Virus record (IMG/VR): IMGVR_UViG_3300031227_000107 | Span: 1-43,972 of that record | Length of the DNA stretch: 43,972 bases | Source of the DNA: a virus | Strand: one strand, 5' to 3' | Part shown: piece by piece, positions 6,210 through 22,649 of the stretch | Position numbering within the stretch: position 1 is the stretch's first letter | Layout of the letters: each line of letters begins with the position of its first letter | Position numbers and translations under genes: made by a program | Notes under the pieces: generated by a model | Told to the model about the DNA's origin: nothing | The model's database searches: none | The model's input: only the letters and a program-made list of their open reading frames with translations

Positions 6210-8309
6210 ATGTATATGAATATGTTTGAGAAACTGTTTATTAATAGAGTAAATAAATCTAGCATAGATGCACGATGGTTTAAAAACCTTGTCTCTCCAG
6301 ATAGTTCAGTTTCTGATGATCCTTATGGTAAAAGTGCATTAGCATATTCATGTATAAGTTACACAGGAAGAGCTATTAGTCAAGTTCCTCTTATTGAAGA
6401 GAGGAGAGTTAATACTAGGTGGGAAGCAGTTTTAAATTCCCCCTATACTAGAGCATTTGAGAATCCTAATGATGTTACAGAGGCAGACACTTTTAAGGAG
6501 TCTTTGGTAGGTCATTTACTTTTAGATGGAAATGTTTGGGTATATCCAGTATTTGGCAGTGATAAGAAAAAGGATATTCCTGATGTATGGGCAATTAAAC
6601 AAGAATATATTAAGGCTGTAAAAAAAGCTAATGGAAGACTAGATTATTGGAAATTTTCCCCTTCAGGTAAATTTTCAGAAGAAGATAATAAAAACATAAT
6701 AAAGATTCCTGCAAGTGATATAGCTCATATTAAGTTTTGGAATCCTAATGATTTAATTTTAGGACAGAGTCCTTCAAAAGCAGGAAAACTTCCATTAGGT
6801 AGTGATTATAAAGCATCGATGTATAATGATTTATTTTTTGAAAATGGAGCATCTATTAGTGGAGCTCTTACAACAGATAAGATAGTTAATGATAGTTCTT
6901 TTAAACGGCTTACAGAGCAGTTTACTAGTAAACATCAAGGGTATAAGAATGCACACCAGATAGCTGTGCTGGATAGTGGATTAAAATACACTCCTATGGG
7001 TATTACTCAAAAGGATATGGATTATCTTAATTTAAGAAAGTATAGTCGTGAAGAGATTATAACTCTTTATGGAATGAAACCTTCTATTCTTGGATTAACA
7101 GAAAAAATTAATTTTGCAACTACAGTGCAGATGAAAAAAGATTGGTGGACCACTACTAATATTCCTATAATGAGGAAAATTCAGAATGCACTTACTATTC
7201 TTTTCTTTGGTAAAGATCCAAATAGAAGACTTATTTTTGATATTAGTTCTATTGAAGCATTACAAGATGAGTATAAAGAAAAAGTAGAGAACTATTATAA
7301 GTTAGTAAATACAGGTGTTCCGCCTAAAGATGCTAATGAGACATTGAATATGCATCTTCCTCGTTTTGCTGGTGATGATATAGGTATGGTTCCAATGAAT
7401 TATGTTCCTAGAGCAGATGCTGCTTCAGGTATATATGCTGCAGGAGCAACAGTAGTTACTGATGAGAGTGGAGAAAAAGCCACTATTACCTATCCTGCTA
7501 AAAAAGAGGTTAAGCAACAGGAAGTAGTAACAAAAACAAAGAAACAAATCATGCTGGAATTAAGGTGGAAGAGCTTAATGGAAACCTTTTTTCCCATAGA
7601 GAAAATGTTTGAGAGTAAAGTTAAACGGGTATTTATGGAGATGCGAGTAGCTTCTTTAGCAGTTATTAAAAAAGATATTGATACTTCTCTTACAAAAATA
7701 CAGAAAAAAGATTTAGAAGATTTAGAGGAATTAGATTTTTTAGAATTTGAAGATTTAATGGCTGCTTTTACTGCTGCTATTTACTTGCTTGCAGTTAAAG
7801 AAGGCTGGGCTACAATGGTAGCAGAGTTAGGTGTAGCCCTACCATTTGATATAAATAATGTAGAAATTCAATATTTTTTACAAACAAAACCAAATAAAAT
7901 TAGAGGTATTGTAGAGACTGTACGAAGAGAGATTATAGCTAGTATACAAGTAGGTAAAGATAATGGTGAGAGTTTTGATCAGATTATTGCACGAATAAAA
8001 AAAGTATATAATGGAGCTTCTAATAGAGCAAAAAATATAGCTATAACAGAGATAATGGGTTCAGCTAATTTTGCTAGACATTTAGTTTTAGTTGGAAGTG
8101 GGTTTGATTATAAAAGATGGATTACTGCATTTGATGAAAAGGTTAGAGAATTACACGCCCCAATGCATGAAGTTATTATTTCTATTGATGAAGCTTGGGT
8201 AATGCCTAATGGTGAGTCTTTAGAGTATCCCGGAGATTGGAATGCTTCAGCACAAAATACTGTGGGATGTAGATGTATTGAAGATGGTGTAAAGACTTTA
8301 GAAGGATAA
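6210..8309 (+). CDS. Portal protein fused to a C-terminal MuF-type domain
   Basis: Residues about 35-430 match the HK97-type portal family, with the ALAYSCISYTGRAISQVPL entry motif and a GMKPSILGL block. The portal ring forms the DNA entry channel at one capsid vertex. Residues about 590-695 match the Mu gpF-like minor head domain: RAKNIAITEIMGSANFARH, then FDEKVRELHAPMH, a PGDW block and the closing GCRC. The two are usually separate neighbouring genes, so here the minor head protein is built into each portal subunit. AAGGG upstream favours ATG 6210 over the in-frame ATG at 6216. The protease gene follows, as in HK97-like phages. Confidence 0.88.
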   Translation: MYMNMFEKLFINRVNKSSIDARWFKNLVSPDSSVSDDPYGKSALAYSCISYTGRAISQVPLIEERRVNTRWEAVLNSPYTRAFENPNDVTEADTFKESLVGHLLLDGNVWVYPVFGSDKKKDIPDVWAIKQEYIKAVKKANGRLDYWKFSPSGKFSEEDNKNIIKIPASDIAHIKFWNPNDLILGQSPSKAGKLPLGSDYKASMYNDLFFENGASISGALTTDKIVNDSSFKRLTEQFTSKHQGYKNAHQIAVLDSGLKYTPMGITQKDMDYLNLRKYSREEIITLYGMKPSILGLTEKINFATTVQMKKDWWTTTNIPIMRKIQNALTILFFGKDPNRRLIFDISSIEALQDEYKEKVENYYKLVNTGVPPKDANETLNMHLPRFAGDDIGMVPMNYVPRADAASGIYAAGATVVTDESGEKATITYPAKKEVKQQEVVTKTKKQIMLELRWKSLMETFFPIEKMFESKVKRVFMEMRVASLAVIKKDIDTSLTKIQKKDLEDLEELDFLEFEDLMAAFTAAIYLLAVKEGWATMVAELGVALPFDINNVEIQYFLQTKPNKIRGIVETVRREIIASIQVGKDNGESFDQIIARIKKVYNGASNRAKNIAITEIMGSANFARHLVLVGSGFDYKRWITAFDEKVRELHAPMHEVIISIDEAWVMPNGESLEYPGDWNASAQNTVGCRCIEDGVKTLEG

Positions 8310-8321
8310 AAGGAGTATATA

Positions 8322-9548
8322 ATGGCAGAAAAATTAGTATTACCTGATGGTAAAAAAATTCTTACAAGAGACTTTACAAATGTAATAAAAAGTGTCGATG
8401 TAAATAAACGTCAAATAGTTATGCGGGGAACAGATGAGACTGTAGATAGACAAGGTGAAGTAGTAATGATGAGTGGTTGGGATCTTAAGAATTATCTTAA
8501 GAATCCAGTATTTCTTTGGGCTCATGATTATGGTAGTGTACCTTTAGCTGCAGCTAGTAAAGTTATTAAGAAAAAAGGTTCAGATCCTCATTTGTTATTT
8601 TATTTAGATTGGCCTACAAAGGAATTATTTCCTTTTGCAGATATGATTCTTAATTTATACCAGGAGAAAATAATTAATGCTTCTTCAGTAGGATTTTTTC
8701 CATTAAAGTCTGAGAATATGGATGAAGATGCAGAATCTTATTGGGCTCCACAGAGATATTTAAAGCAAGATTTGCTTGAGCTTTCAGGTTGTGCTGTTCC
8801 TTGTAATCCAAATGCTGTTCAGAGTGCTGTAAAAAGTATTGGTGGGATAAAAGCATGGGTAGAGTATATTATAGGTGAGCAAAAGCATATGTCTGCTCCA
8901 GATAATGCAGATGATATTTTAGAAGAGGTGGATAAATTGAGACAAAATGTTGAGTTTATAGATGAAACAAAGAAGACACAAGTAGTTATTGATGGTAATA
9001 AAGATGAAGTTTTTGAAACAAGTAAGAGCGAAGAAGTTAAAGCAGTTGAAGAAGTTCTAGTTAATCCTAATGGGAAATTTGATGAAGATTCTCATTATAC
9101 AAAAGTTGAAAATTCAGATGAGTTAATTGAGGAACTAGAAAAAGATATAACAGAAGAGGAGATTAAAGAAATTGATGAGGAAGATGCTGTAGTAAGAGAT
9201 GCTGAAAAAGCTATGAGTTTAGATTATGAAATAGAAGTAAATGGGAATCCTGTAGAAGATTTTAGAATGGAAGAGTTTGATATTGAAGATAATTCAGGGA
9301 TTAAAATTTACGTTAATTATAAGGAAGTAGAAGTGGAAGATGAAGTTAATTCTTCAGTGGAGTCCTTGGATGATAAATCCATAGAGGACAAATGCACAGA
9401 GGAGGATATAACTAAATACAAAGCAACACTATTTCCAGAGAAAGCTGAAGTAGAGAAAGAAATTGAAGGTAAGCTTACGTCTGAAGAGATTACAAAGCTT
9501 ATTCCTTTGGTTAAACAAGTAGAACAAGTAATAAAGGATAATATATAA
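8322..9548 (+). CDS. Prohead protease with acidic scaffold-like C-terminus
   Basis: Residues 1-175 form an S78/U35-type prohead protease with the expected blocks: FLWAHDYG (H68), ASSVGF (S122) and LLELSGCAVPCNPNA (E153). It should cut scaffold and the capsid N-terminus during maturation. Residues about 195-408 are strikingly acidic and low in complexity, rich in E, D, V and I. This is consistent with a fused scaffolding domain, since no separate scaffold gene is seen between protease and capsid. AAAGGAG precedes the ATG. The stop overlaps the capsid start by one base (TAATG), which suggests coupling. Confidence 0.85.
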   Translation: MAEKLVLPDGKKILTRDFTNVIKSVDVNKRQIVMRGTDETVDRQGEVVMMSGWDLKNYLKNPVFLWAHDYGSVPLAAASKVIKKKGSDPHLLFYLDWPTKELFPFADMILNLYQEKIINASSVGFFPLKSENMDEDAESYWAPQRYLKQDLLELSGCAVPCNPNAVQSAVKSIGGIKAWVEYIIGEQKHMSAPDNADDILEEVDKLRQNVEFIDETKKTQVVIDGNKDEVFETSKSEEVKAVEEVLVNPNGKFDEDSHYTKVENSDELIEELEKDITEEEIKEIDEEDAVVRDAEKAMSLDYEIEVNGNPVEDFRMEEFDIEDNSGIKIYVNYKEVEVEDEVNSSVESLDDKSIEDKCTEEDITKYKATLFPEKAEVEKEIEGKLTSEEITKLIPLVKQVEQVIKDNI

Positions 9549-10870
9549 TGGAAGACCTATTTAAAAAGAATGCAGAAGGAGAGTTTGTTCCTGTTGAAGC
9601 TGAGATTAAAGATAAGGATGTGAACATAATTACTTCTTCAAGTAAAAGTGAGTATGACCAGTTGAAAGACGGGCTTGATGGTATTGTGAATGCTGTTAAT
9701 ACGAATGGTGCTATGAAGCAGTTGCAGGAAGAGATGAAAGAGCAGAATGCAAAGTTTGAAGAGTTTAAGAAGGGTGGTTTTTCTATGCCCTCTAAACAAG
9801 AAGATGTAGATGATGTTGCGCAGAAGTATTTTACAAAGCATAATATTGATATGGCTTATCAAGGTAAAATGTTGCAGGATAAAGTTAAGCATCCTGGTTA
9901 TCAGATGAGTGAAGAAAAACGTGTATACTGTGCGGAGTGGATGGCTCTTGCTATTAAAGCAGCTAGTGGTGATTATCGGGCTAGAGAAATTATGGAAGGT
10001 AAGTATAAAACTGCTATTGGGGATTCAGGGAATGATGATCTTCCTATTCCAGATCCAGTACAGGTTGAGATTATGAAGTATGCTTATGAAGAGTCAGTTG
10101 GTTTGCAGGATTGTGAAGTTGTATCTATGAAGTCTGAATTTAAAACTTATCCAAGAGAGACTGCTGGTGTAACTTTTGCATGGAGTAATACTACTCCAGC
10201 AAGTGATCCTACACTTGATGAAGTTAAGTTGACTTGTGAGGAAGTATCAGCCTATTCAACTGCTCGTAATATGACGCTTGCTGATTCACCTTCTGATCTT
10301 GTTGGTTGGTTATTTGGGATTATGAGTAATGGTCTTGGACAGGAGATAGATGATCAGTTGTTTAATGGTACTGGTTCTCCTAATAGTGGGTTATTTACTG
10401 CTAAAACTGGTTATTCTGTAAATATGGGCACAGGAAGTACTTCTTTTGCAGATGTTTCAGATGTTGAATTTTCAAAAATGATAGCTGCTCTTGATGGCAA
10501 AAGAAAACGGAATGCTAAGTTCTATATGAATGGGGAAATTCTTCACTATGTTAGAACTCTTAAAGGTACTACAGATATGCCTATTTTTGTAGAGTCTGTT
10601 GGTTCTCCTGTTCCTGGTGCAATTTATGGTAAACCTTATAAAGAAGTAGTTGTTGCTCCTAGTACAGATGCTGCTGCTACTGCCTTTGTTTATTTTGGTG
10701 ATTTGAAGAAAACCTACATTGGGAAACATATAGATTCATTAGCATTCACTACTAACACTCAGGGTGATACAGCGTTTAAAACTAACCGTACCTTGTTTAA
10801 ATTGTATGGGCGATTTGCAATTGAAAATGGGTTGCCTAATGCAGGTGTTAGATTGATTACTGCTGCTTAA
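9548..10870 (+). CDS. Major capsid protein, HK97 fold
   Basis: The product has 440 residues. The N-terminal 130 or so are charged and helical (LQEEMKEQNAKFEEFKKGG), as in the scaffold-like delta domain that the prohead protease removes. The rest follows the phage capsid family: a P-domain helix around QEIDDQLFNGTGSPNSGL, a GKRKRNAKFYMNGE block and a C-terminal FGDLKKTYIG...AFKTNRTLFKLYGRFA block. It sits directly after protease and is followed by a GC-rich hairpin, as expected for a highly expressed gene. The cleavage site cannot be fixed by eye. Confidence 0.9.
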   Translation: MEDLFKKNAEGEFVPVEAEIKDKDVNIITSSSKSEYDQLKDGLDGIVNAVNTNGAMKQLQEEMKEQNAKFEEFKKGGFSMPSKQEDVDDVAQKYFTKHNIDMAYQGKMLQDKVKHPGYQMSEEKRVYCAEWMALAIKAASGDYRAREIMEGKYKTAIGDSGNDDLPIPDPVQVEIMKYAYEESVGLQDCEVVSMKSEFKTYPRETAGVTFAWSNTTPASDPTLDEVKLTCEEVSAYSTARNMTLADSPSDLVGWLFGIMSNGLGQEIDDQLFNGTGSPNSGLFTAKTGYSVNMGTGSTSFADVSDVEFSKMIAALDGKRKRNAKFYMNGEILHYVRTLKGTTDMPIFVESVGSPVPGAIYGKPYKEVVVAPSTDAAATAFVYFGDLKKTYIGKHIDSLAFTTNTQGDTAFKTNRTLFKLYGRFAIENGLPNAGVRLITAA

Positions 10871-10930: not shown

Positions 10931-11887
10931 ATGATAGTTAATATTACATGTATGAAGTGTGGGCAAAGTGTTAGGGCTAAAAGTGGAACAACAAGAACAT
11001 TAACCTGTCAGTCTTGTGGTTGTACTGATGTTAAATTTTCATCTGATGCAGTCGTGCATTGTGTTAATTGTAAAGAACCTTATATACATATGAAAAATAA
11101 TATTTTTCGTAGTGTGTGTAAAAAATGCCATAAAGGGTTATGGACTATTACTTCTTTAGTAGAATATCAAGACGTAGCAATGGAGATAGAAGAAAATATT
11201 TCTCCAGAGGATGTAGTTTTAAGTAATGCTGTTTCAGCAGTGGTTGTATGTCATAATTTAGAAGGTATGACTGTAGATTGTATTGATAAGTTAAGAAAAG
11301 TTCCAGAAATTAAAGAAATTATACTTGTTGATAATGGTAGTATTGAACCTATTGGTAAATGGGCTAAGAAACAAAAGGATATTGTATATATACGAAATGA
11401 AACTAATCTCGGTCCGGCTGTTGCTAGAAATCAGGGAGTAAAGAAAGCTTTTAATGATTGGTTATTTTTTATAGATAATGATCAAATGGTTTCAAAAAAT
11501 GTTATAAGTAGAATGGCTAAAGAAAATAAAGATATTGTTGGTATTGAAGCTTGGCAGTTGGATGCAAAGGGAACACCTTCTCCTTCAACAAGCACTATAG
11601 AATTTAATACCTATGTTGGTACTGGTGGGATGCTTATTAAATCAAGAGTATTTAAAGCTATTGAGGGATTTGATGAGCAGTATGCTCTGTGGTATGAAGA
11701 TACAGATTTATGTCTTAGAGCAAGACAACGTGGATATGAGATAGGTTGTATTGCAAATCATAATGTTCAGCACTTAGAACATAGGACTATGAATACACAA
11801 AAGACCTTTAATAGTAGTAAAGAAAAACAAGTAAGTAGAAAATTGTTTGTTAAACGTTGGGGTACTTATCTTAAAGCAGGAAATTAA
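10931..11887 (+). CDS. GT2-type glycosyltransferase with N-terminal double zinc ribbon
   Basis: Residues 1-70 carry two CxxC...CxxC modules (C7, C10, C26, C29 and C44, C47, C63, C66). Residues about 100-310 form a GT-A family 2 domain: SAVVVCHN entry, LVDNGS, NLGPAVARNQG, the metal/nucleotide-binding DND (182-184) and WYEDTDLCLRARQRGY near the base. It should transfer a sugar from a nucleotide-activated donor and resembles rhamnosyltransferase-type enzymes. Zinc ribbons on a GT2 are unusual and may bind the protein acceptor. GGGAGG precedes the ATG. It is the first gene of the cassette. Confidence 0.82.
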   Translation: MIVNITCMKCGQSVRAKSGTTRTLTCQSCGCTDVKFSSDAVVHCVNCKEPYIHMKNNIFRSVCKKCHKGLWTITSLVEYQDVAMEIEENISPEDVVLSNAVSAVVVCHNLEGMTVDCIDKLRKVPEIKEIILVDNGSIEPIGKWAKKQKDIVYIRNETNLGPAVARNQGVKKAFNDWLFFIDNDQMVSKNVISRMAKENKDIVGIEAWQLDAKGTPSPSTSTIEFNTYVGTGGMLIKSRVFKAIEGFDEQYALWYEDTDLCLRARQRGYEIGCIANHNVQHLEHRTMNTQKTFNSSKEKQVSRKLFVKRWGTYLKAGN

Positions 11888-11899
11888 GGGAGTAATATA

Positions 11900-12847
11900 A
11901 TGAAAGTTTTAATTACGGGAATAAATGGGTTTGCGGCTTCACATCTTGCTAGATTTTTATTAAATAAGGGATATGAAGTTCATGGTACAATAAGAGTAAG
12001 ATCTGATTTGCATAGAATTAAAGATATTGAAGATAAAGTAAAACTTCATCTTGTAGAATTATCAGACACTATTTCAATAACTAATCTTATAAACACAGTT
12101 ACACCTGATGAGATATATCATCTTGCAGCACAAAGTTATGTTAAATCTTCTTGGACTTCGCCTATTGAGACATATACTACTAATGTATTAGGAACTGTAA
12201 GTTTGTTAGAAGTTATTAGACAAAGTGCAAAACCGTTTGTTAAAGTATTAGTTACATCTACTTCAGAGGTGTATGGTGATCAGAAAGGTACACTTAATGA
12301 AGATACTCCTCCAACCCCTAATACTCATTATGGTATAAGTAAATTAGCTCAAGATATGATTGCTAGATTATATGTTGGAGCTTATAAAATGAATGTCATT
12401 GTTACTAGGTCTTTTAATATTACTGGAGCAGGAAGAGCAGACGTTTTTGTAGATAGTAATTTTTGTAAACAAATAGCAGAGATGGAAAAGAGGGATGATC
12501 CTTTAAACAGTATTTTACGGCATGGTAATTTAGAAAGTGCTAGAGATTTTACAGATGTGCAGGATGTTGTAGAGGGGTATTACTTAGCAATGAAAGAGGG
12601 TATTTCTGGAGAAATATATTGTTTTTGTAGAGAAGAGGCAACGAAGATTCAGGATCTTTTGGATCTTATGCTTAGAAATGCAAAAATCTCAATACAAACA
12701 GAGGTTGATCCAGAGAGGTTTAGACCTGTGGATACGGCAGTTATGTTAGGGGATTGTACAAAGGCAAAGGCTTTAGGTTGGAGAGTTACAGTACCTTTAG
12801 AGCAATCTATAATTGAACTTCTTAATTATTGGAGAGACAGGGTATGA
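11900..12847 (+). CDS. Extended SDR, GDP-4-keto-6-deoxymannose reductase/GMD-like
   Basis: The Rossmann motif is TGINGFAASHL (G7, G10). HLAAQSYVKSSW, STSEVYG (S122, E123) and YGISK (Y144, K148) give the catalytic set. The FNITGAGRADVFVDSNF block, GNLESARDFTDVQDVV, DPERFRPVD and the closing GW...YWRDR resemble RMD (GDP-6-deoxy-mannose reductase) more than GMD, which has FNHESPRRG. It should act on a GDP-4-keto-6-deoxy sugar, with the host supplying GDP-mannose and perhaps the 4,6-dehydratase. The stop overlaps the next start (ATGA). The choice between reductase, epimerase-reductase and dehydratase is not certain. Confidence 0.8.
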   Translation: MKVLITGINGFAASHLARFLLNKGYEVHGTIRVRSDLHRIKDIEDKVKLHLVELSDTISITNLINTVTPDEIYHLAAQSYVKSSWTSPIETYTTNVLGTVSLLEVIRQSAKPFVKVLVTSTSEVYGDQKGTLNEDTPPTPNTHYGISKLAQDMIARLYVGAYKMNVIVTRSFNITGAGRADVFVDSNFCKQIAEMEKRDDPLNSILRHGNLESARDFTDVQDVVEGYYLAMKEGISGEIYCFCREEATKIQDLLDLMLRNAKISIQTEVDPERFRPVDTAVMLGDCTKAKALGWRVTVPLEQSIIELLNYWRDRV

Positions 12848-13917
12848 TATCATTAGCCACATCAAAAGTTACTCAGGCTGTAAGAGACAATATAGAAGAT
12901 TGTTTAAATGAAAATAGAATAGGGCAGGGTAGGTTTAATAAGGAATTTGAGGACCGTGTAGCTGCTTATATGGGGGTTAAACATGCTATAGCAGTATGTA
13001 ATGGTTCTATGGCTGATATAGTGGCTCTGGGAGCTCTAAAGGCCAAGTATCCCGATAAGGATGAAGTGATTGTTCCTGCTTACACTTTTATAGCTCAAAC
13101 TAATGCTATTCTTATTAATGGTTTGAAGCCTGTGTTTGTGGATGTAGAGAAATGTGATTTTCAACTTAATCATGTGCAAGTTGAGAAAGCTATTACAGAT
13201 AAAACTTTATGTATTTTTCCTGTGCATTTATTTGGTAGAGATTGTTATATTGATGCTCTTTTAGATATAGCTATTGACTATGACCTTCCTGTAGTAGAAG
13301 ATTGTTGTGAAGCTTATGGTGGGCAAACAGAGACTAAACAGAAATTTGGTACATTTGGTGATTTTGGTACATTTTCATTTTTTCCATCTCATACAATTAC
13401 TACTGGTGAAGGTGGTATAATAATTACAGATGACGATGAGTTGTCTGGAATAGCCAGACAAGTGGCTAATCATGGTAGACGAGGAAATAATATATTAGAT
13501 AAGTTTCATTTTGATGTTTTTGGATATAATGGTAAAATGAGTAATGTATTAGCTTCTATAGGTTGTGCTGTAGTTGATAGTGCTGATGAAGTTATTGAAA
13601 AAAGACAAAAGAATGTAGATTTATATAATAAGCTGTTAAATAAATATTGGTATGCAGAAAGTCCTCATTGTTATCCTGTTGTGTGTGAGAGTGAGATACA
13701 AAGAAATACTATATTACAGGTATTAGAAAGTAATGGTATTGAAGCTAGAAAGGCGTTTTCATGTTTACCCACGCAAGAAAAAGTATATGCTAATTTTGGT
13801 GGAAAGTATCCTATAGCAGAAGAGTTAGGTAAAGTAGCACTTTTTGTTCCAGTACATCAAGACCTTTCAGAAAAAGATATTATAAAAATTTGTAATGTAA
13901 TTAAAAAGTGTTTATAA
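12844..13917 (+). CDS. DegT/DnrJ-fold PLP enzyme with His for the catalytic Lys: probable sugar 3-dehydratase (ColD-like)
   Basis: The fold-type I sugar aminotransferase family is clear: VCNGSMADIVALGAL, DEVIVPAYTF, VVEDCCEAYGG (PLP-binding D153) and FGDFGTFSFFPSHTITTGEGG. Aminotransferases of this family have Lys six residues before GEGG. Here that position is His183 (codon 13390-13392). His there is known from ColD and the E1 enzymes, which remove the sugar 3-hydroxyl to make 3,6-dideoxyhexoses. No E1-type iron-sulfur cysteine set is evident and length (357) is nearer ColD. The ATG at 12844 overlaps the SDR stop. With the RMD-like neighbour this suggests a colitose-like GDP sugar. An inactive aminotransferase is the alternative. 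Confidence 0.8.
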   Translation: MISLATSKVTQAVRDNIEDCLNENRIGQGRFNKEFEDRVAAYMGVKHAIAVCNGSMADIVALGALKAKYPDKDEVIVPAYTFIAQTNAILINGLKPVFVDVEKCDFQLNHVQVEKAITDKTLCIFPVHLFGRDCYIDALLDIAIDYDLPVVEDCCEAYGGQTETKQKFGTFGDFGTFSFFPSHTITTGEGGIIITDDDELSGIARQVANHGRRGNNILDKFHFDVFGYNGKMSNVLASIGCAVVDSADEVIEKRQKNVDLYNKLLNKYWYAESPHCYPVVCESEIQRNTILQVLESNGIEARKAFSCLPTQEKVYANFGGKYPIAEELGKVALFVPVHQDLSEKDIIKICNVIKKCL

Positions 13918-13926
13918 TGGAGTTAT

Positions 13927-14565
13927 ATGTATTACTATGATATTGGGGATTATGAAATATTTTTTAATCCAAGATGTGCATTATCTACTATAAGGGAATG
14001 GGGGATAGGAATAAGAAAGAAAGGGATTCCTTCTATATTTGATGCTGCTCCTTCTATATTTGATTGGCCTTATAAAATGGCACTTACGACAGAACGAGAA
14101 AAAGTACTAGTTATAAGAAATCCAACAGAAAGATTTATTTCCATACTGAATCATGTTATTGTATTTGAGTGTGTAAATAATCTTGATACTAAAGCAAGAG
14201 TACCTTTATTTTTAGATGTGTTAGAAAAAGATGGGTTAAATTTTAATGATCATTTAAGATTGCAATGTAGATTTCAAGATAATTCTGAGTTATATAAAGT
14301 AGAAAATCCTAGTAAATATTTTGATCATATATTGAGATTAGAAGATGGGAATTTAATAGAGCGGTTAAATACATTAACTGGATACTTAAGTGAAGACATA
14401 TATGTAAATACAACTCAAGAAAAAATAGATTATCCAGAAAATTATTTTTATGATTATACAAAAATGGAGTTTATTACTAAGGAGGATATAACAGAGGAGA
14501 TGTTACAAAGGATAAAGAAGTTATATTATTATGATTATAAACATTTTTATCCTGAATTACTTTGA
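13927..14565 (+). CDS. Probable sulfotransferase (family 2-like)
   Basis: The product has 212 residues. An early FFNPRCALSTIREW stretch (residues 12-25) lies where sulfotransferases have the PAPS 5'-phosphosulfate loop. LVIRNPTERFISIL (residues 61-74) matches the 3'-phosphate-binding VRNPxxRFxS motif of carbohydrate sulfotransferases. LRLED follows at about 140. The rest is charged and unassigned. It would move sulfate from PAPS onto a glycan hydroxyl. The loop departs from the usual PKxGxTS, so the call rests mainly on the second motif and on the neighbours. GGAG precedes the ATG. Confidence 0.6.
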   Translation: MYYYDIGDYEIFFNPRCALSTIREWGIGIRKKGIPSIFDAAPSIFDWPYKMALTTEREKVLVIRNPTERFISILNHVIVFECVNNLDTKARVPLFLDVLEKDGLNFNDHLRLQCRFQDNSELYKVENPSKYFDHILRLEDGNLIERLNTLTGYLSEDIYVNTTQEKIDYPENYFYDYTKMEFITKEDITEEMLQRIKKLYYYDYKHFYPELL

Positions 14566-14599
14566 TGAATAATTTATACTAAAGAGAGGTATATGGGGT

Positions 14600-15382
14600 A
14601 TGGTAAATCTTATAGTGTTTTCTAAAAATAGACCAATGCAGTGTCAAGCGTTATTAGATAGTGTTGCGCTTCATACAAGTATTTTTGATAATATTGATGT
14701 ACTATATTACTCTGATGAAGAGTATGAAATAGGGTACTCTTTATTAAAGAGTAGAAAATCAGATGTACATTTTTATAGAGAAGTAGGAAATTTTAAAGAA
14801 GTACTATTACCTTTATTTAAATATGATTATACTTGCTTTGCTGCAGATGATGATATTGTGTATGGTGATTTTGATAAAGAGTTATTTGTAGCTTTTTTAG
14901 AAAGGGCAGTTTGTTTTTCATTAAGATTAGGAGAGAATATAGATTACTGTTATTCTAATGATAAACCAAATAAATGTAAAACAAAAGATGTGTATGATAA
15001 TAAATTTGTAGTATGGGAATGGAAAAAAGAAGAGTTAGATTTTGGTTATCCCTTGTCCGTAATTTCTCATATATTTAGAACTAAGGAAATAGAAGAATTA
15101 AGTAAATTAGATGAGTATCAAAACCCTAATGTATACGAGGGGGTATTACAGCAGCATCTAAATAAGATACAACCCTATATGGTATCTTATAAGGAAAGTA
15201 AAGTGTTTGGTGTACCTGCAAATAGAGTAAATGTTTCAGCACCTAATAGGAATGGTTTAGAATACCCCTATAGTGTAGAAGAACTTCAGGGGATGTATAT
15301 AGATGGTAAAATAATAGATGTAGCAAATATGGTGTATGATATTCATGCAGCACAGCAGGAAATTAAATATGTCTTTGCATAA
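14600..15382 (+). CDS. GT-A-like glycosyltransferase
   Basis: The product has 260 residues. It opens LIVFSKNRPMQCQALLDS, an entry typical of GT-A transferases, and has a DDD triplet (83-85, CFAADDDIVYGDF) where the metal-binding DXD should be. The last third includes SVISHIFRTKEIE and NRVNVSAPNR. The family number is not certain. It may modify a polysaccharide or protein with a nucleotide-sugar donor. GAGAGG at 14584-14589 favours the ATG at 14600. It overlaps the next gene by 14 bases. Confidence 0.65.
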   Translation: MVNLIVFSKNRPMQCQALLDSVALHTSIFDNIDVLYYSDEEYEIGYSLLKSRKSDVHFYREVGNFKEVLLPLFKYDYTCFAADDDIVYGDFDKELFVAFLERAVCFSLRLGENIDYCYSNDKPNKCKTKDVYDNKFVVWEWKKEELDFGYPLSVISHIFRTKEIEELSKLDEYQNPNVYEGVLQQHLNKIQPYMVSYKESKVFGVPANRVNVSAPNRNGLEYPYSVEELQGMYIDGKIIDVANMVYDIHAAQQEIKYVFA

Positions 15383-16007
15383 GATATTTACTTATTGGGA
15401 AGGACCAAAACCAGAGTATATAGGGATGTGTCAAGATAGTTTGAATAAACATTGTAGAAATGATTTTGAAATTTTTAATTTTTGTGATTGCCATAACCCT
15501 AATAATTTAAAGATTAATCATAAAGTAGATGTATTAAAGGCAAATTTAGTTTTAGAGAATGGTGGGTTTTGGATAGATGCAGATATGATTGTTATGCAGA
15601 GTTTATTACCGCTTATAAAATTAGTAGAAAGACATGGCTTTATAGGTTTTCCTGGATTTTTTGGAGCTAAAAAAGGAAATAGATTACTTCAGGATTGGGT
15701 AAAAGCAATGGATAAAATTGTATCTACAGAGCTTTCTTTTGCAGATCTTATTCAGCCTTTACTTAGTAATAAGAAGTATAAAGGATATCAATACTTAACA
15801 AGGGAAATGAGTACTCCTATTTGGCATACAAGAGATGAGTTTTGGAAATTATTTAAAGATCTTCCTTTAAAAGAGTATGTTACAAAAAAGACATATGTTT
15901 TTACATTATACAACTCACAGTTTAGTAAAGAATTTAAAGAAATGTCACGGGAAGCAATCCTAGAAAAGGATTGGCTAATATCAAAAGTATTTAGGGAGTC
16001 GCTATGA
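15369..16007 (+). CDS. GT32-like (DXD, capsular/mannosyl-type) glycosyltransferase
   Basis: From ATG 15369 the product has 212 residues and starts HKIFTYWEGPKPEYI. It contains the family block VDVLKANLVLENGGFWIDAD with the DxD at D70-D72, characteristic of the sugar-binding DXD region shared by GT32 and capsular polysaccharide enzymes. An upstream in-frame ATG at 15336 would lie deeper in the previous gene. CAGGAA upstream of 15369 favours the shorter form. It ends in a 4-base ATGA overlap with the next gene, which suggests translational coupling. Confidence 0.7.
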   Translation: MSLHKIFTYWEGPKPEYIGMCQDSLNKHCRNDFEIFNFCDCHNPNNLKINHKVDVLKANLVLENGGFWIDADMIVMQSLLPLIKLVERHGFIGFPGFFGAKKGNRLLQDWVKAMDKIVSTELSFADLIQPLLSNKKYKGYQYLTREMSTPIWHTRDEFWKLFKDLPLKEYVTKKTYVFTLYNSQFSKEFKEMSREAILEKDWLISKVFRESL

Positions 16008-17371
16008 AACTATGTAGTGTAATTTGTTCTTATAATGCACCGGAATTAACTGATAAAGTATTTCAGCAACTATTAAAGAATATTCCACATGATATATTTA
16101 TATTAGAGAATAGTTCTGATGTAAATAAAATGTACACTAAGGGTAGTGTAATTGATTTAGGTAGAGAGAATATTGGTTATGGTGGGATGAAGGATTATAT
16201 GTTTAAAAATTTTGGTCATTATGATTGGGTAGGAATGTTTAATAATGATGTATATGATATTCCAGAAAATTATATAGAAGTTTTAATGAAGTATATGAAA
16301 AAAGATGTAGGTATTATTTCAAGTGCTATTCAAGATAATGGTACTGGATGGAATTATATGAAAAAGAAAGGTAATTACCATCGAGAAGTTGAATCGGTAG
16401 AAGATATGGCAGCATTTTTTAATACTTCTTTATTTTCTGAAATGCAAAAATATTCACCTTATCAGTATTATGGGGTTGTAGATATTCAGGAAAGTATGCT
16501 TTATAAAAAGCATGGATATAAACGTTTAGTAGTAGATGAATTATGTATAGGCCATATGCTTTCTGGTGGTAGAGAAGCTGCAGGAACAAAAGAGGAATAC
16601 TATAGTAATACTGTAAGAGCTACTAATGATTGGCATGATGACTTTCTTGATCTTAAAGAACTATATGATGATTATTATTTTAAACGACATGAAACTCTTT
16701 CAGTAATTACTCCTCATTATAATCATAATGGATGTTTACGAGATGCATTATTAAGTATTATTAATCAAGAAACAAAATTTAATGTAGAAATGATAGTAAT
16801 AGATGATTGTTCAGATGTAGATCCATATGATAGTATTAAAGATTTGCCTATAAAATATATAAAAAATAAAAAGAATGTGGGTTTAGCAGCTACTAGAAAT
16901 GTGGGGATAGCTGCTTCAAGTGGAGAGTTTATATTACCCTTTGATGCAGATGATCAATTATTACCTGGGGCATTGCAGAAGTATTATGAAGCTAAAAACA
17001 AAGGGGATATTATTTATGGTAATCTTCTTTGGATGGGTAGTGAAGCCCAATTAAAACCAAGAGTTCCCATTGATAAAGAGTATTTTATTACTGATAATCA
17101 ACTCTCTGCTACTTCTATGTATACTAAAGAAGTTTGGAAGAATATAGGTGGTTATTGGGTAAAAAAGACAGGTAGTAAGGAGCACTATGAAGATTGGGAT
17201 TTTTGGGGTAGGGCTGCAGCATTAGGTTATGATTTTTATTATGTAGATTATAATATGTATCTTTACAATGGATTACCAGATGGTATGTGTGCTAGAGTAG
17301 GAAAAAATAGAAAAGAGAATGTTAAAATATGTACGGACCATATAAAAAAGTTTAAAAAGAGTTTAAAGTAA
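16004..17371 (+). CDS. Tandem two-domain GT2 glycosyltransferase
   Basis: Two GT-A domains lie in one 455-residue chain. The first (1-215) opens SVICSYNAPELTD and has NND at 80-82 (MFNND). The second (about 231-450) opens LSVITPHYNHNGCLRDAL and has VIDDCS, NVGLAATRNVG, DADD (314-317) and a HYEDWDFWGRAAALGY block. The second is a complete classical family 2 domain. The first is more divergent. Such double enzymes may add two sugars in turn, as chain polymerases do. The gene ends 10 bases before the tRNA-Pro, and the cassette resumes after it. Confidence 0.78.
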   Translation: MKLCSVICSYNAPELTDKVFQQLLKNIPHDIFILENSSDVNKMYTKGSVIDLGRENIGYGGMKDYMFKNFGHYDWVGMFNNDVYDIPENYIEVLMKYMKKDVGIISSAIQDNGTGWNYMKKKGNYHREVESVEDMAAFFNTSLFSEMQKYSPYQYYGVVDIQESMLYKKHGYKRLVVDELCIGHMLSGGREAAGTKEEYYSNTVRATNDWHDDFLDLKELYDDYYFKRHETLSVITPHYNHNGCLRDALLSIINQETKFNVEMIVIDDCSDVDPYDSIKDLPIKYIKNKKNVGLAATRNVGIAASSGEFILPFDADDQLLPGALQKYYEAKNKGDIIYGNLLWMGSEAQLKPRVPIDKEYFITDNQLSATSMYTKEVWKNIGGYWVKKTGSKEHYEDWDFWGRAAALGYDFYYVDYNMYLYNGLPDGMCARVGKNRKENVKICTDHIKKFKKSLK

Positions 17372-17381
17372 TAAAGTATTT

Positions 17382-17454
17382 CAGTGTGTAGCTCAGTTGG
17401 TAGAGTGCTCCCCTTGGACGGGAGAAGCCGGTAATTCAAGTTTACCCACACTGA
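17382..17454 (+). tRNA. tRNA-Pro (anticodon UGG)
   Basis: The fold is a complete cloverleaf. A perfect 7-bp acceptor stem (CAGTGTG/CACACTG) is followed by a D arm with GTTGGTA loop. The anticodon stem CTCCC/GGGAG has loop CTTGGAC (anticodon TGG), and the T stem GGTAA/TTACC has loop TTCAAGT. C1-G72 with discriminator A73 are the known bacterial proline identity elements. The 3' CCA is not encoded (CAA follows), so it must be added by the host. It reads CCA and other proline codons, and sits between two glycosyltransferase genes in the same direction. Confidence 0.93.
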
Positions 17455-17477
17455 CAACTAAAAATGGGGGGTAGTTT

Positions 17478-19256
17478 ATGGAGAATAAATTAAAGCTTGC
17501 ATGGGGTATTTTTTCAGATAAACGTTTAATTGGTAATGGTTATGGCTATAGGATGCATAATGAGCACTTGTATGAGGCACTAGATAAACTAGTAGATTTT
17601 GATGGTGATGCAGAGCATGTAGTTACAATAACATCTCCTGAATTTTTTACTCCTATACCAGATAGAGATAATTGGTTGTTTACAATGTTTGAAGGAACTA
17701 TACTACCTAAAGTGTATAAAGATGGAATTAGTAAAGCAAATTATTTATTAGTCCCTTCAACATGGGTTAGAGATTTATTTGGTAGATGGTTTGATAAAAA
17801 TAGAATATTTGTAGTACCTCATGGTATAGATAAAGATTTTACTTTAGTTAATAGGGGTTATCCAAAATTTGTGCCTTTTAGGTACTTGTGGGTTGGGGCA
17901 GCTAATCCTCGTAAAGGCTGGGTAGAAATAATTGCAGCGTGGGATTCAGTATTCAGTAAAGATAGCACTACTGAATTATATCTAAAGACAACTTCTGTAG
18001 AAGAGTCTAAAGAATTAGCCGAGAAGTTTGATTTTCAGCATATAGAAGAAGGTATTTGGAAAAAAGATAATGTTATCCTTGATGCTAGGAATGTTTCCGA
18101 AGAAGAGCTTGTTAAGTTGTATCATGATGCACATTGCTTTGTATTTCCTTCTAGGGGAGAAGGGTGGGGCATGACACTAGGGGAAGCTATGGCAACAGGT
18201 TTGCCTTGTATAGCCACTAATTTTTCAGGACACACAGATTTTTTTAATAATTTAAATGGATATCCTATTGGTTACAGTTTGAAAACTGCTAATATGACTA
18301 TGGCCGGAGTAGAAGTTGGAGATAGGGAAAGATCACATACTACAGTTTGTGCTTATCCTGATGTACAGGAGCTTATTGGAGCAATGATTTATGCTAGAAT
18401 ACATTACAATGAGTCATTAGCATTAGGAAGAGAAGCTTCAAAAACAATGAAAAATTTCACTTGGGGAGCTTCAGCTAGAACATTAATAAATATTATAAAA
18501 ACTCATGGTGGAGATAAAGAAAAAAATCATAAAACAGTGAATGTTGATCGTAATCCTGCTAAGAGAAAAGTAATGACTTTTACAGGATATAAAAGACCAA
18601 AGTACACACAACAAGTAATTGATGGATTAAGAAGCTGTGATGGTATAGAAGATTATAAATTATTCGCTAGACTAGAACCAGGATATCCTGAAGTAGTAGA
18701 TGTTATAAAATCTATTAATTTTATGGAATGTGAGTATATTATAAATGATTGTAGATTAGGGTGTAATGATAATTATTACCAAGCACTTTCTAGAGGATTT
18801 GAGGCAGGAGATTTTGTAGTTCAGGTAGAAGATGATACGGTTCCTACTAAAGATTTTTTAAGGTATATGGAATGGGCTCAAGAAAAATATAAAGATGATA
18901 AAGAAGTATTTACTATATGTGGATATAACAAGATAGATAAATATGATTCAGCAACTTCTCATGATGCATTTAAGAATCCTTGGTTTACTCCTTGGGGTTG
19001 GGCTACATGGGCTGATCGTTGGAAAGAGATTGAGAAGCAATGGGATTCTGAATTAGGTAAATCTTGGGATATCTTTATGAATGAAACTATGCGTAAAGAT
19101 AGATATGAGATAAGACCTACTTTAGGTAGAATACAAAATGTAGGTGCAGAGGGTGGAGAATTTTGTCCAAGTAAAGAGTTTCATGAAGCTAATCAGCTTA
19201 ATAAGATTTGGGCAGGAACAGAAGAATATGAACAAGGTGTTTGGAAACTAGTATAA
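17478..19256 (+). CDS. GT4 (GT-B) and GT2-like (GT-A) fusion glycosyltransferase
   Basis: Residues 1-345 are a GT-B family 4 enzyme: a VPHGID turn, GAANPRKG, and the E-x7-E donor site PSRGEGWGMTLGEAMATG (E228, E236) followed by ATNFSGHTDF. Residues about 365-592 are a second transferase with a GT-A look: VMTFTGYKRPKYTQQVI entry, VVQVEDDTVPTKDF (EDD 451-453) and FTPWGWATWADRW, as in enzymes related to GNT-I and phage/host HlpA-like transferases. One chain thus carries two transferase folds. A GGGGG-containing leader follows the tRNA. It is the last gene of the cassette, and the connector starts 10 bases later. Confidence 0.8.
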   Translation: MENKLKLAWGIFSDKRLIGNGYGYRMHNEHLYEALDKLVDFDGDAEHVVTITSPEFFTPIPDRDNWLFTMFEGTILPKVYKDGISKANYLLVPSTWVRDLFGRWFDKNRIFVVPHGIDKDFTLVNRGYPKFVPFRYLWVGAANPRKGWVEIIAAWDSVFSKDSTTELYLKTTSVEESKELAEKFDFQHIEEGIWKKDNVILDARNVSEEELVKLYHDAHCFVFPSRGEGWGMTLGEAMATGLPCIATNFSGHTDFFNNLNGYPIGYSLKTANMTMAGVEVGDRERSHTTVCAYPDVQELIGAMIYARIHYNESLALGREASKTMKNFTWGASARTLINIIKTHGGDKEKNHKTVNVDRNPAKRKVMTFTGYKRPKYTQQVIDGLRSCDGIEDYKLFARLEPGYPEVVDVIKSINFMECEYIINDCRLGCNDNYYQALSRGFEAGDFVVQVEDDTVPTKDFLRYMEWAQEKYKDDKEVFTICGYNKIDKYDSATSHDAFKNPWFTPWGWATWADRWKEIEKQWDSELGKSWDIFMNETMRKDRYEIRPTLGRIQNVGAEGGEFCPSKEFHEANQLNKIWAGTEEYEQGVWKLV

Positions 19257-19266
19257 GGAAAAGCTC

Positions 19267-19848
19267 ATGTTTGTGGATTTTACCGATTTAAAATTGGAAA
19301 TGGGAATAGCTAAAATTGAGCACGGTGATGAGGAGATTCTTAATTGGTTAGCTACTATGATTGTAGAGATGTGGGATGATCTAACTAACCGTACATGGGC
19401 TACTACAGCCTATACAGCAGAGATACATAGCACTAATGGTAATCAGTCTATTTTTAGTACAGATAACTACCCTATTACTGCTATAGCTGATATTTGGGAT
19501 GATCCTAATTGGGAGTATCCAGATAGTGACAAACTAGATGCCAGTACGTATGATTTTTCATATGATGCTGGTTCAGGTATGATTTATTCAGATACTCTTT
19601 TTTTAAAAGGACCAAGAAATATTAAAATTAGTTACACTGCAGGGTACACAGATACTAATGTACCTAAATGGTTAAAGCAGTTATTAATTAGACAAGCTTG
19701 TCACTGGTTCCATCAAAGGAATGAGCAGACTTGGCATAGAGCTTCTAAGGCATTACCTGATGGTGGTGTAGTTACTTTTAATACATTGAAAGCTAATTTA
19801 CTTCCAGACTTTATGTATTTTGCAGATTTTCATAGGAGAAGAGGATAG
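19267..19848 (+). CDS. Head-tail connector (HK97 gp6-like adaptor)
   Basis: The product has 193 residues. It begins with a helical region of the gp6/gp15 adaptor type (FTDLKLEMGIAKIEHGDEEILNWL...VEMWDDLTNR), followed by the typical beta section with YPITAI and the KISYTAGYTDTNVPKWLKQ segment that precedes a helix in this family. It binds under the portal to complete the head. It is the gene normally found directly after capsid, so the 8.3 kb cassette separates it from its usual neighbour. It overlaps the next gene by one base. Confidence 0.78.
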   Translation: MFVDFTDLKLEMGIAKIEHGDEEILNWLATMIVEMWDDLTNRTWATTAYTAEIHSTNGNQSIFSTDNYPITAIADIWDDPNWEYPDSDKLDASTYDFSYDAGSGMIYSDTLFLKGPRNIKISYTAGYTDTNVPKWLKQLLIRQACHWFHQRNEQTWHRASKALPDGGVVTFNTLKANLLPDFMYFADFHRRRG

Positions 19849-20348
19849 TGATTGAGTGGGAATTAAAGGGATGGAAAAGTACATTGCCTACAGCTCCTCC
19901 TGCTGTATCTGCTAATTGGAGTAAGATGGAATGGTCACAATTTTATGCTCAATCAAAGCAGTTACAAAAGACTATGCCTAATACTTTTGGAGTATTATTT
20001 CATAGAGGATTAAAGCATACACAAAAAGTAATTAAAAATAGACAACTTTCTAGAAAATCAGCTAGTACATTAGGTGTAGTTACTAACAGACTAAGAGCTA
20101 GTATACAGTTTAGGGTTATTTCTGTAACCAGAGATAAGATTAGGGGTGTAATTGGTACTGATGTATGGTATGGTAAATTATATGAAGAAGGTTTAAAAAA
20201 GGGAAAGAAAGTTTGGCCTAAAAAAGAGTGGATGAAAAAGGGTATTGCATTACAAGAAAATACTGTTTATTGGGATAAGATATTTAGAAAAGCAGGACCA
20301 AAAATATTTTCATTTCAAAAAGTAGAAACATTATATCCAGGAGTATAA
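19848..20348 (+). CDS. HK97 gp10-like tail-completion/neck protein
   Basis: The product has 166 residues from a GTG start supported by AGGAGAAGAGG just upstream. The central VTNRLRASIQFRVI...RGVIGTDVWYGKLYEEG segment is the hallmark of the HK97 gp10 family, in which a beta sheet is followed by a Y(A/G)xxxEfG turn. These proteins bridge head and tail. Position after the connector and before the tail-terminator-like gene fits. The end abuts the next ATG (TAAATG). Confidence 0.72.
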   Translation: MIEWELKGWKSTLPTAPPAVSANWSKMEWSQFYAQSKQLQKTMPNTFGVLFHRGLKHTQKVIKNRQLSRKSASTLGVVTNRLRASIQFRVISVTRDKIRGVIGTDVWYGKLYEEGLKKGKKVWPKKEWMKKGIALQENTVYWDKIFRKAGPKIFSFQKVETLYPGV

Positions 20349-20803: not shown

Positions 20804-21826
20804 ATGTTAACTACAGGTAAAGTTGGTACTTTACGAATATTAGATGGTTCTGAGATTATAGCTAAAGGGGCTCAAGCAACTATGAGTTGTTTTACTTATG
20901 TTTCTATTGGGACAACTTTTGCAGATAAAACAGCAGAGGCTTATGCTGATGATACAGATTATACAGGTAACTTTTGGGCTGCTGCTAGTGATACAATTTA
21001 TGTAGGGCAAACAAGCAAATTTGGAAGAATTAAGTTTTTAAAAGATGGGGGTGTATTTGCTATTGCTGCAGGACTTTTAATTCCTAAATACTACAATGGT
21101 ACTTCTTGGGTTACTATTACTGACTTTAATGATGGTACTGCTGTTGGTGGGCATACTTTTGCTGCAGATGGGTACATTGATTTTAAAATACCACAGGATT
21201 GGGCTGTACAAGGAGATGCTAGTTTAGATGCAGATATGTATTACATTGAACTTAATCCCACGGCACTCCCTTCTACAGAGCCTAGTGCTGATGTGTTAGC
21301 TCCTGTTGATGGTAAGTTTTTTGATGTAAAGTTTGCATCAATGGATTTTTCAGGACCACTAGGTAGACCGAAGACAGCGGAAAGGCTTAAGTTGAATAGG
21401 GGTAATATGGATTCTTGTGCTCACTTTGTAGAGGGTCCAGATGATCCTATCTATGAAGCAGTACCTATTTCTTTTAGTTTAGCATTGGATGATACTTGTA
21501 ATAGAGAGTATATACTTTTAGCTTTAGAGTGTGGTACAGTAGGAAGTACTTATTGGACAGGAGCAGGTGTAACTACTAAAGGGGATACTAAAAATGATGG
21601 TACAAATGCTAATCCTGCTTTTGTAGATAGTGGTAAAAAATGTGTTGATATTGTAATGATATGGGCTAATTCAACAGGAAGTGTTTATGGTAGAGCTTAT
21701 TATGAGGTTTATTTTCCACCTAATGAGCAGTCTATATCAGAAGCAGAGGATGCTGTAACATTAACTTGTGCAGGGGGTTGTTATGGTGTTATAGAGGGTA
21801 CTGGTGGTTTAGCTAGTAGATACTAA
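20804..21826 (+). CDS. Tail tube-like protein with inserted beta domain
   Basis: The product has 340 residues. Its C-terminal 170 or so match the neighbouring 22062-22649 product: GRPKTAERLKLNRGNMDSCA, HFVEGPDDPIYEAVP..FSL, a DTKNDGTNANPAFVDSGKK block and EAEDAVTLTCAGGCYG. The N-terminal 180 residues differ. They hold a beta-rich segment (about 30-165, with KFGRIKFLKDGG and YYIELNP) inserted after the first strands. Two related tail-tube-like genes side by side suggest one builds the tube and the other is a decorated, initiator or terminator variant. AGGAGG precedes the ATG. Confidence 0.65.
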   Translation: MLTTGKVGTLRILDGSEIIAKGAQATMSCFTYVSIGTTFADKTAEAYADDTDYTGNFWAAASDTIYVGQTSKFGRIKFLKDGGVFAIAAGLLIPKYYNGTSWVTITDFNDGTAVGGHTFAADGYIDFKIPQDWAVQGDASLDADMYYIELNPTALPSTEPSADVLAPVDGKFFDVKFASMDFSGPLGRPKTAERLKLNRGNMDSCAHFVEGPDDPIYEAVPISFSLALDDTCNREYILLALECGTVGSTYWTGAGVTTKGDTKNDGTNANPAFVDSGKKCVDIVMIWANSTGSVYGRAYYEVYFPPNEQSISEAEDAVTLTCAGGCYGVIEGTGGLASRY

Positions 21827-21835
21827 GGAGGAATT

Positions 21836-22078
21836 ATGAAGTATTATATATATGCTGATGGAGAAGAAGTAAAAATTGTAAATGCTAAAGGGTATGTTTC
21901 AGCAAAACAAAAAGGAGTAAAAGCTGGATTTATAGATTGTGTAGTATATCGAGAAGATGATGTTATGCCACCAATCAAAAAGAAAAAAAAGAAAAAACAA
22001 GAGGTTATAATTGAACAAGAGATTATGCCTGAAAATGAGATTATAAACGAAGGAGAAGAAAATGATATTCACGAATAA
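21836..22078 (+). CDS. Small charged protein between the two tail-tube genes
   Basis: The product has 80 residues. The first half is beta-like (MKYYIYADGEEVKIVNAKG). The middle has an unbroken run of lysines (KKKKKKK, from an A-rich stretch at about 21977-21997), and the end is acidic (EQEIMPENEIINEGEEND). AAGGAGG precedes the ATG. Its last 17 bases overlap the next gene's start. I do not recognise it. The position suggests a tail accessory. Confidence 0.5.
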   Translation: MKYYIYADGEEVKIVNAKGYVSAKQKGVKAGFIDCVVYREDDVMPPIKKKKKKKQEVIIEQEIMPENEIINEGEENDIHE

Positions 22079-22649
22079 ACCTGGATTAATTAGACTGTAT
22101 GATTCAGCTTCTACCCCAGTGTATTTACAATTAAAATTTGATTTAGGAGATGCTAATTTTCCTATGGGGACTCCTAAAACAGAAGAGAAACTTATGCTTC
22201 ATAGAGGTAATATGAATAGTGATTCTCATTTTGTTGAAGGATCAGATGAGCCTATGATGGAGTCAGTAGCTGTTACATTTAGTTTACATCTTGAAGATAC
22301 CTCCCATACAGGATATGTATTGGATTGGATAGATGCTATGAATGATGGTGGAAGTACTCAAGTTAATAGTCATACTTTAGAAACAGATCAAGCAGATACT
22401 AAACGAGATGGAACTAATGATAATGTAGCTTTTGCTGATAGTAATAAGTTAACCTGTAAGGTAGAAGTTATTTTTGATACTTCTGGTACAGATATGCATT
22501 GGGAAATTAGTGGTGTATATTTTGCTGCTGATCAACAGGGTGTTGGTGAGGCAGAGGATGCTGTAACATTATCTTTAAATGGTATGTGTTATGGAACTAT
22601 TGTGCACGATACTTCTGCATTTACTGAAGGAACAGATGTAACAGCGTAA
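22062..22649 (+). CDS. Tail tube-like protein (paralogue of 20804-21826)
   Basis: The product has 195 residues. GTPKTEEKLMLHRGNMNSDS, HFVEGSDEPMMESVAVTFSL, a DTKRDGTNDNVAFADSNK block and GEAEDAVTLSLNGMCYG align with the C-terminal half of the longer product at 20804-21826. It lacks the inserted N-terminal domain, so it is the more compact and probably the main tube subunit. AAGGAGAAG precedes the ATG at 22062. It lies directly upstream of the tail-assembly chaperones, the usual place for a major tail protein. Confidence 0.68.
   Translation: MIFTNKPGLIRLYDSASTPVYLQLKFDLGDANFPMGTPKTEEKLMLHRGNMNSDSHFVEGSDEPMMESVAVTFSLHLEDTSHTGYVLDWIDAMNDGGSTQVNSHTLETDQADTKRDGTNDNVAFADSNKLTCKVEVIFDTSGTDMHWEISGVYFAADQQGVGEAEDAVTLSLNGMCYGTIVHDTSAFTEGTDVTA

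Follow-up and report, generated by a model that had tools for sequence, protein, structure and literature searches.

By the account of papers that cite Freeman 2023, virion glycosylation by phage genes is already known as a kind: the capsid and tail tube of the mycobacteriophages Corndog, Che8 and Myrna are glycosylated by phage glycosyltransferases (via PMC11600133, PMC12619734 and PMC12363180), and the virion glycans of such mycobacteriophages weaken antibody responses (Freeman 2023, via the citing papers). Between portal and protease, Corndog encodes a pair of glycosyltransferases together with a putative N-acetylglucosaminyltransferase and an O-methyltransferase; mass spectrometry detected strangely few of its capsid peptides (PMC4351075). 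In the cluster J mycobacteriophages (Thibault, Omega, LittleE and others), the stretch between the major capsid protein (MCP) gene and the connector gene holds 8-10 genes for glycosyltransferases, methyltransferases and kinases (PMC3706429); five glycosyltransferases are predicted in the Thibault island, for which the choice between a viral and a host target was left open (PMC3706429). Here we describe a cassette of glycan enzymes in the corresponding interval of an uncultured phage, at positions 10,931 to 19,256 of IMG/VR record IMGVR_UViG_3300031227_000107 (the window, meaning the whole 43,972-base virus record, in which no terminal repeats were found), together with its counterparts in related phages.

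The window shares with cluster J an identical slot (Thibault gp10-gp21), several glycosyltransferases of which one has two catalytic domains, sugar-tailoring enzymes and variation from member to member. It differs in that homology within the cassette is limited to a generic GT2 match (3e-5), the portals are 27% identical, and the zinc ribbon, GT4 subfamily, ColD-like enzyme and sulfotransferase described below were not detected in cluster J; with only a generic GT2 match between them, the cluster J island is analogous to that of the window and not the same island. Corndog likewise has glycosyltransferase genes among its structural genes, although in another slot and in smaller number, and its virions are glycosylated according to the citing papers. 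Those papers place the glycans of Corndog, Che8 and Myrna at C-termini, whereas the window MCP has no C-terminal extension. The present analysis contributes breadth across uncultured phages, a GT4 subfamily tied to the head locus, zinc-ribbon fusions, a sulfotransferase with dideoxy-sugar enzymes, and a candidate acceptor segment.

Glycan genes at the capsid-adaptor junction

We consider it probable that the cassette is a capsid-linked protein-glycosylation island, expressed late and acting on a virion protein, most likely the capsid. The interval between the MCP gene (9548..10870, + strand; HK97 fold, PF05065 3e-28) and the head-tail adaptor gene that forms the island's downstream border (19267..19848, +; phrog_442 E 1.3e-10) holds eight open reading frames (ORFs) and a tRNA-Pro on a single strand, in the position and orientation given by the first-pass annotation of this DNA. 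The spacings from the MCP onward are 60, 12, -4, 9, 34, -14, -4, 10, 22 and 10 nt; the ATGA-type overlaps that had been claimed are true of two cassette junctions (12844 and 16004), and gaps within the block range from -14 to +60 nt. A terminator scan found no site within the cassette block.

Portal-based searches yielded 61 viral loci, among which the complete MCP-adaptor intervals mostly hold small genes alone (0-1.3 kb), the exceptions with glycan genes in the slot being L011, the L006-L009 group and the L021 group. A search with the GT4 part only, taken from the two-domain protein encoded at 17478, returned loci nearly all directly 3' of an HK97-type MCP. Broadening the GT4 profile brought in 147 relatives; the 80 retained were grouped at 90% identity into 71 clusters: 45 have the MCP upstream and the adaptor downstream, 14 the MCP only, 10 the adaptor only and 2 neither, and at least one of the ten adaptor-only clusters (L079) is an overlapping-ORF artefact that in fact has the MCP upstream. 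The GT4 gene lies within 50 nt of the adaptor start in 28 of 55 cases. Because this search used no capsid sequence, the linkage to the MCP is independent evidence, and the slot with its GT4 was reached independently from the MCP side in L085, L092, L172, L180, L184 and the window. Glycan genes thus occupy the same junction in dozens of relatives, which rules out chance; the search for the same insertion in related phages, proposed in the first-pass annotation, confirms its observation as real, with small corrections. The arrangement is not the unusual one it had been called, as cluster J mycobacteriophages (PMC3706429) and many relatives have glycan genes in this interval.

Among near relatives by MCP, a zinc ribbon and glycan genes are found in the slot of L011, L073, L085, L087, L088, L089 and L092, but not of L091. 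Cassettes 6-9 kb long occur in L108, L114, L115 and L123, and the two-domain GT4-GNT-I fusion of the window recurs in L096 and L097, 3 nt 5' of the adaptor. Accessory enzymes of the relatives include radical-SAM and B12-radical-SAM proteins, GT9, polysaccharide pyruvyl transferase, methyltransferases, a GMD/RMD-like short-chain dehydrogenase/reductase (SDR) and further GT4s. One clade pairs the capsid-locus GT4 with a radical-SAM-like protein (L007 7767-8630, L021 5968-6780, L074 5483-6289), and between the radical-SAM and GT4 genes of L085 lies a 175-aa protein (7850-8374) with a P-loop-like start (VGPESSGTKL), sulfotransferase-like by look and with no Pfam match. Most relatives without the GT4 have small decoration-like genes in the slot; L178, for example, a near relative without glycan genes, encodes two decoration-like proteins after its MCP (11282-12747). 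Simple replacement of decoration genes by the cassette was dropped as a rule, as the L074 interval has both a 260-aa gene and a GT4. The isolate phages Daubenski and Trina have distant GT4 matches upstream of head genes, outside this slot.

The highly variable content of the slot, and the presence of HNH- and GIY-like genes at this junction of L091 and L108, would fit a hotspot of mobile metabolic cargo at a permissive late-gene junction, serving no common function. We regard this as very improbable, given that the cargo is almost always glycan-related, that one GT4 subfamily keeps returning with a divergence like that of the MCP, and that the codon usage of the window cassette is that of the structural genes (r 0.99); together with its G+C content (31.6% versus 33.3%), this leaves the cassette without sign of recent foreign origin. 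The HNH- or homing-endonuclease-like genes themselves (L091 4991-5326, L108 9504-9998) are a possible route for cargo moving in and out.

The N-terminal GT4 of the 17478 protein belongs to the capsid-locus GT4 subfamily, and that subfamily is co-inherited with the capsid gene. Over 43 lineages, the rank correlation of distances is 0.78 for GT4 and MCP, 0.74 for MCP and portal and 0.705 for GT4 and portal, and the partial correlations are 0.54 for GT4-MCP given portal and 0.30 for GT4-portal given MCP. This close co-inheritance points to a viral target for such islands and, if borne out, partly answers the question of viral versus host target raised for cluster J in 2013. The near-confinement of the GT4 subfamily to the MCP-adaptor interval of uncultured phages, its MCP-tracking distances and the published glycosylated phages all place the cassette with the head genes, the part of the proposed virion-decoration system that stands; its description as unusual and self-contained does not.

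Enzymes of the cassette and a host-surface alternative

Functions were called with Pfam at curated family cut-offs, and PHROG and NCBIfam profiles were also used. Against the curated cut-offs for glycan enzymes, six of the eight cassette ORFs pass, one is sub-threshold and one (14600) is without profile support. Three glycosyltransferase genes (10931, 16004 and 17478) lie above the cut-offs. The first (10931..11887, +) encodes a double zinc ribbon (about residues 1-80), overlooked previously, fused to a GT2 glycosyltransferase (PF00535 4.9e-20). The second (16004..17371, +) encodes a GT2 enzyme matching PF00535 in two stretches (1.1e-29), of which the C-terminal domain is certain and the N-terminal domain alone is GT2-like at a sub-threshold 5e-4. 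The third (17478..19256, +) joins a GT4 glycosyltransferase (PF13692 1.3e-14) to a GNT-I/GT13-like domain (PF03071 3.6e-9). The first-pass count of five glycosyltransferases included two further genes. One encodes a probable DXD (GT32/capsule-type) glycosyltransferase (15369..16007, +), with weak, sub-threshold matches to PF05704 (0.002) and PF04488 (0.003). The other, assigned by eye, encodes a protein that we leave without assignment, possibly GT-A-like (14600..15382, +; no Pfam, PHROG or NCBIfam match). The sole homologue found outside this phage, at 6001-6795 of L201 (LR756501, a 735-kb phage; 31%), has no glycosyltransferase match in the profile search, and the single-sequence AlphaFold (AF2) model of the 14600 protein, at pLDDT 38, is unusable.

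The sugar-nucleotide enzymes are an SDR and a DegT-family protein. The NDP-sugar SDR is of the RMD type (11900..12847, +; PF16363 1.7e-72) and by sequence is closer to 4-keto reductases than to dehydratases: its nearest solved structure is the GDP-6-deoxy-D-lyxo-4-hexulose reductase 2pk3 (215 bits, versus 124-127 for GDP-mannose 4,6-dehydratases), and it scores 161 bits against the gmd equivalog TIGR01472, whose cut-off is 415. Cyanophages and jumbo phages with large T4-like genomes carry GDP-mannose dehydratase sets, and the window SDR is up to 38% identical to the cyanophage enzymes. The DegT-family enzyme, dependent in type on pyridoxal phosphate (PLP), is ColD/3-dehydratase-like (12844..13917, +; PF01041 1.1e-88; start set by the ATGA overlap, ORF label 12829). 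A histidine replaces its PLP lysine (FSFFPSHTITTGEGG), a K-to-H change seen on alignment to the perosamine synthase 3bn1. Substitution of Lys by His at the PLP site is the hallmark of ColD and E1 3-dehydratases, and to that extent the earlier ColD-like label is sound. Among solved structures it matches perosamine synthases best (187 bits), ahead of ColD (95-103 bits), and no ColC-like second SDR was found in the cassette; since the perosamine synthases are the closer matches and a ColC partner is lacking, the enzyme is classed from its sequence as ColD-like and no further. The window thus resembles GDP-colitose and perosamine pathways in having a ColD-type Lys-to-His DegT enzyme with an RMD-like SDR, and differs from them in that the GDP-mannose dehydratase (GMD) and ColC partners were not recognised.

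Downstream of these two genes lies one for a carbohydrate sulfotransferase-like protein (13927..14565, +), which exceeds the PF03567 (Sulfotransfer_2) cut-off of 22 with 25.2 bits and matches phrog_3347, galactose-3-O-sulfotransferase, at 2.3e-7, in keeping with its first-pass label of probable sulfotransferase; no solved relative was found by sequence. No genes for the supply of GDP-mannose, GMD or 3'-phosphoadenosine-5'-phosphosulfate (PAPS) were found, and the phage must draw most of its donor sugars from the host. With these supplies not found and the SDR nearer to 4-keto reductases, the cassette is not the largely self-contained system that had been envisaged.

Enzymes of the ColD-like, GDP-sugar SDR, GT2 and GT4 kinds typify O-antigen pathways, and O-antigen conversion genes do occur in phages (match to a GtrB-like gene). 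The cassette might on these grounds act late in infection on the surface of the host cell, remodelling it for receptor masking, superinfection exclusion or release of debris, like the O-antigen-modifying genes of other phages. We think this improbable: we saw no flippase, polymerase or initiating lipid-phosphate transferase among the cassette genes, the head-operon position is conserved over dozens of lineages despite changing enzymes, and surface-modifying morons usually lie outside the head operon. DNA glycosylation was set aside, as the sulfotransferase and dideoxy-sugar enzymes are a misfit and the cassette showed no gene for DNA-base modification.

The capsid as candidate acceptor and the zinc-ribbon module

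The AF2 model of the window MCP (pLDDT 77.6) has as its best VIA match the RcGTA capsid (Z 18.9, root-mean-square deviation 4.6, 253 aligned). Mature MCPs contain 16.1% Ser+Thr in phages with the GT4 (n=53) versus 14.3% in those without (n=14; p 2e-4 with kinship ignored), whereas portal Ser+Thr does not differ between GT4 carriers and non-carriers (10.9 vs 11.1, p 0.68). The MCP excess is centred on window residues 280-300 (nt about 10385-10447), which in the AlphaFold model lie between a long helix (251-273) and a second helix (305-314), and the candidate patch has a consensus near SG-x2-[ST]-A-x2-GYS-x4-SGST-x-FS. A relatedness-adjusted test gave four supported contrasts, with a mean of 2.9 in the expected direction and 0 against; the significance of the enrichment was rejected after an independent-pairs test, and the Ser/Thr enrichment of GT4 carriers' capsids is suggestive only.

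Several points weigh against capsid glycosylation as the function of the island. The GT4-MCP correlation is also expected from vertical inheritance of neighbouring genes. The MCP Ser/Thr contrast amounts to about four to six independent changes, so that significance is unreachable once relatedness is considered, and the neck protein shows a comparable shift (12.4 vs 9.3), which means that the Ser/Thr signal is not unique to the MCP. Neither an oligosaccharyltransferase nor a named protein-O-glycosyltransferase family is present, and the virion glycan itself is a prediction.

The neck protein's Ser/Thr shift also suits a different acceptor, with the tail tube, neck or tail tip being glycosylated and the capsid slot used only as a place in the late operon that tolerates insertions. 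In mycobacteriophages the tail tube has been proven to be a target, by the account of the papers citing Freeman 2023, and in L074 another member of the GT4 subfamily (7754-8791), its second, lies between a tail-completion gene and a tail-tube-like gene, which suggests a tail-tube counterpart. This L074 arrangement also agrees with the capsid reading, as mycobacteriophages have both capsid and tail tube glycosylated. GT4 distances nonetheless follow those of the MCP more closely than those of the portal or protease, and we hold another acceptor to be unlikely. On balance the comparative evidence favours the capsid as target, short of proof.

If the island does glycosylate the capsid, the cassette would be transcribed late together with the head genes, and the GT4 and the zinc-ribbon GT2 would initiate or build O-linked chains on Ser/Thr residues of a virion protein during assembly, the MCP being the most likely one, with the candidate patch at about residues 280-300. 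The remaining transferases would extend the chain, the ColD-like enzyme and RMD-like reductase could convert host GDP-4-keto-6-deoxymannose to a 3,6-dideoxyhexose nucleotide, and the sulfotransferase may cap the chain with host PAPS. The mature virion would then bear a short coat of partly sulfated glycan, with effects on adsorption, aggregation or recognition, and in relatives the slot would stay constant while extension enzymes are swapped. Were this true, virion glycosylation would be a standard trait of a broad uncultured phage group, beyond a few mycobacteriophages; a dedicated enzyme family known by sequence, with a fixed gene address, would yield a rule by which glycosylated capsids could be predicted from metagenomes; and there would be an acceptor segment open to testing, along with phage enzymes that may glycosylate proteins expressed in bacteria.

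The zinc ribbon of the first cassette protein is part of a wider pattern. In most of the near clade a small zinc-ribbon gene comes directly after that of the MCP. The ribbon also occurs as a fusion: to GT2 in the window, L088, L167 and L170, to GT9 in L011, and in L114 into a 1350-aa protein with B12-radical-SAM domains. Homologues of the zinc-ribbon GT2 (10931) lie immediately 3' of the MCP in L170, L167, L192 and L088. We had supposed that the ribbon is always paired with glycosyltransferases, an idea dropped because L175, L178, L183 and L188 have the ribbon without a GT4; their ribbons make it probable that the ribbon is an older head-locus gene, and it may be an old head-locus protein recruited to tether enzymes. 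A more ambitious version, which we offer tentatively and think doubtful as a whole, is a widespread, so far unrecognised capsid-glycosylation system of uncultured MuF-portal phages, in which a dedicated GT4 acts on the MCP Ser/Thr patch, a zinc-ribbon module beside the MCP or fused to GT2, GT9 or radical-SAM enzymes docks them on the assembling head, and extension enzymes are exchanged to vary the coat.

In L114 (3903-7952), L108 (3108-6281) and L189 (4188-8249) the zinc-ribbon protein after the MCP is very large (1058-1354 aa); the one in L114 carries B12-binding and radical-SAM domains and matches GT2 weakly. Just 5' of the window portal, at 4512-5738, a zinc ribbon is fused to a metallophosphoesterase-like exonuclease family protein (phrog_284).

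Neighbouring genes of the window

The gene order, all on the + strand, is portal-MuF, protease, MCP, cassette, adaptor, neck and tail genes. The portal is fused to a MuF-like C-terminal domain (6210..8309, +; phrog_2662 E 1.5e-81, portal_HK97 above cut-off) and is followed by the prohead protease (8322..9548, +; phrog_80 head maturation protease 6e-13, phrog_617 3e-18). The tRNA noted within the block by the first-pass annotation is a tRNA-Pro(TGG) by ARAGORN (17382..17455, +), and the neck protein is encoded at 19848-20348 (+).

A 59,985-base record (L002) represents the same phage, being 99.97% identical across 19.5 kb, and adds about 17 kb on the right. No large terminase was found by relatives' sequences in the window or the extra 17 kb (window and L012). 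A prophage scan of genomes returned one Akkermansiaceae contig, from which the cassette is absent. Close to the left end, 2991-3431 encodes a small cupin-like protein, and a small-terminase-like gene lies on the - strand at 36521-37075. Downstream of the neck gene, two tail-tube-like proteins (20804-21826 and 22062-22649) are paralogous, with 42% identity over 161 aa.

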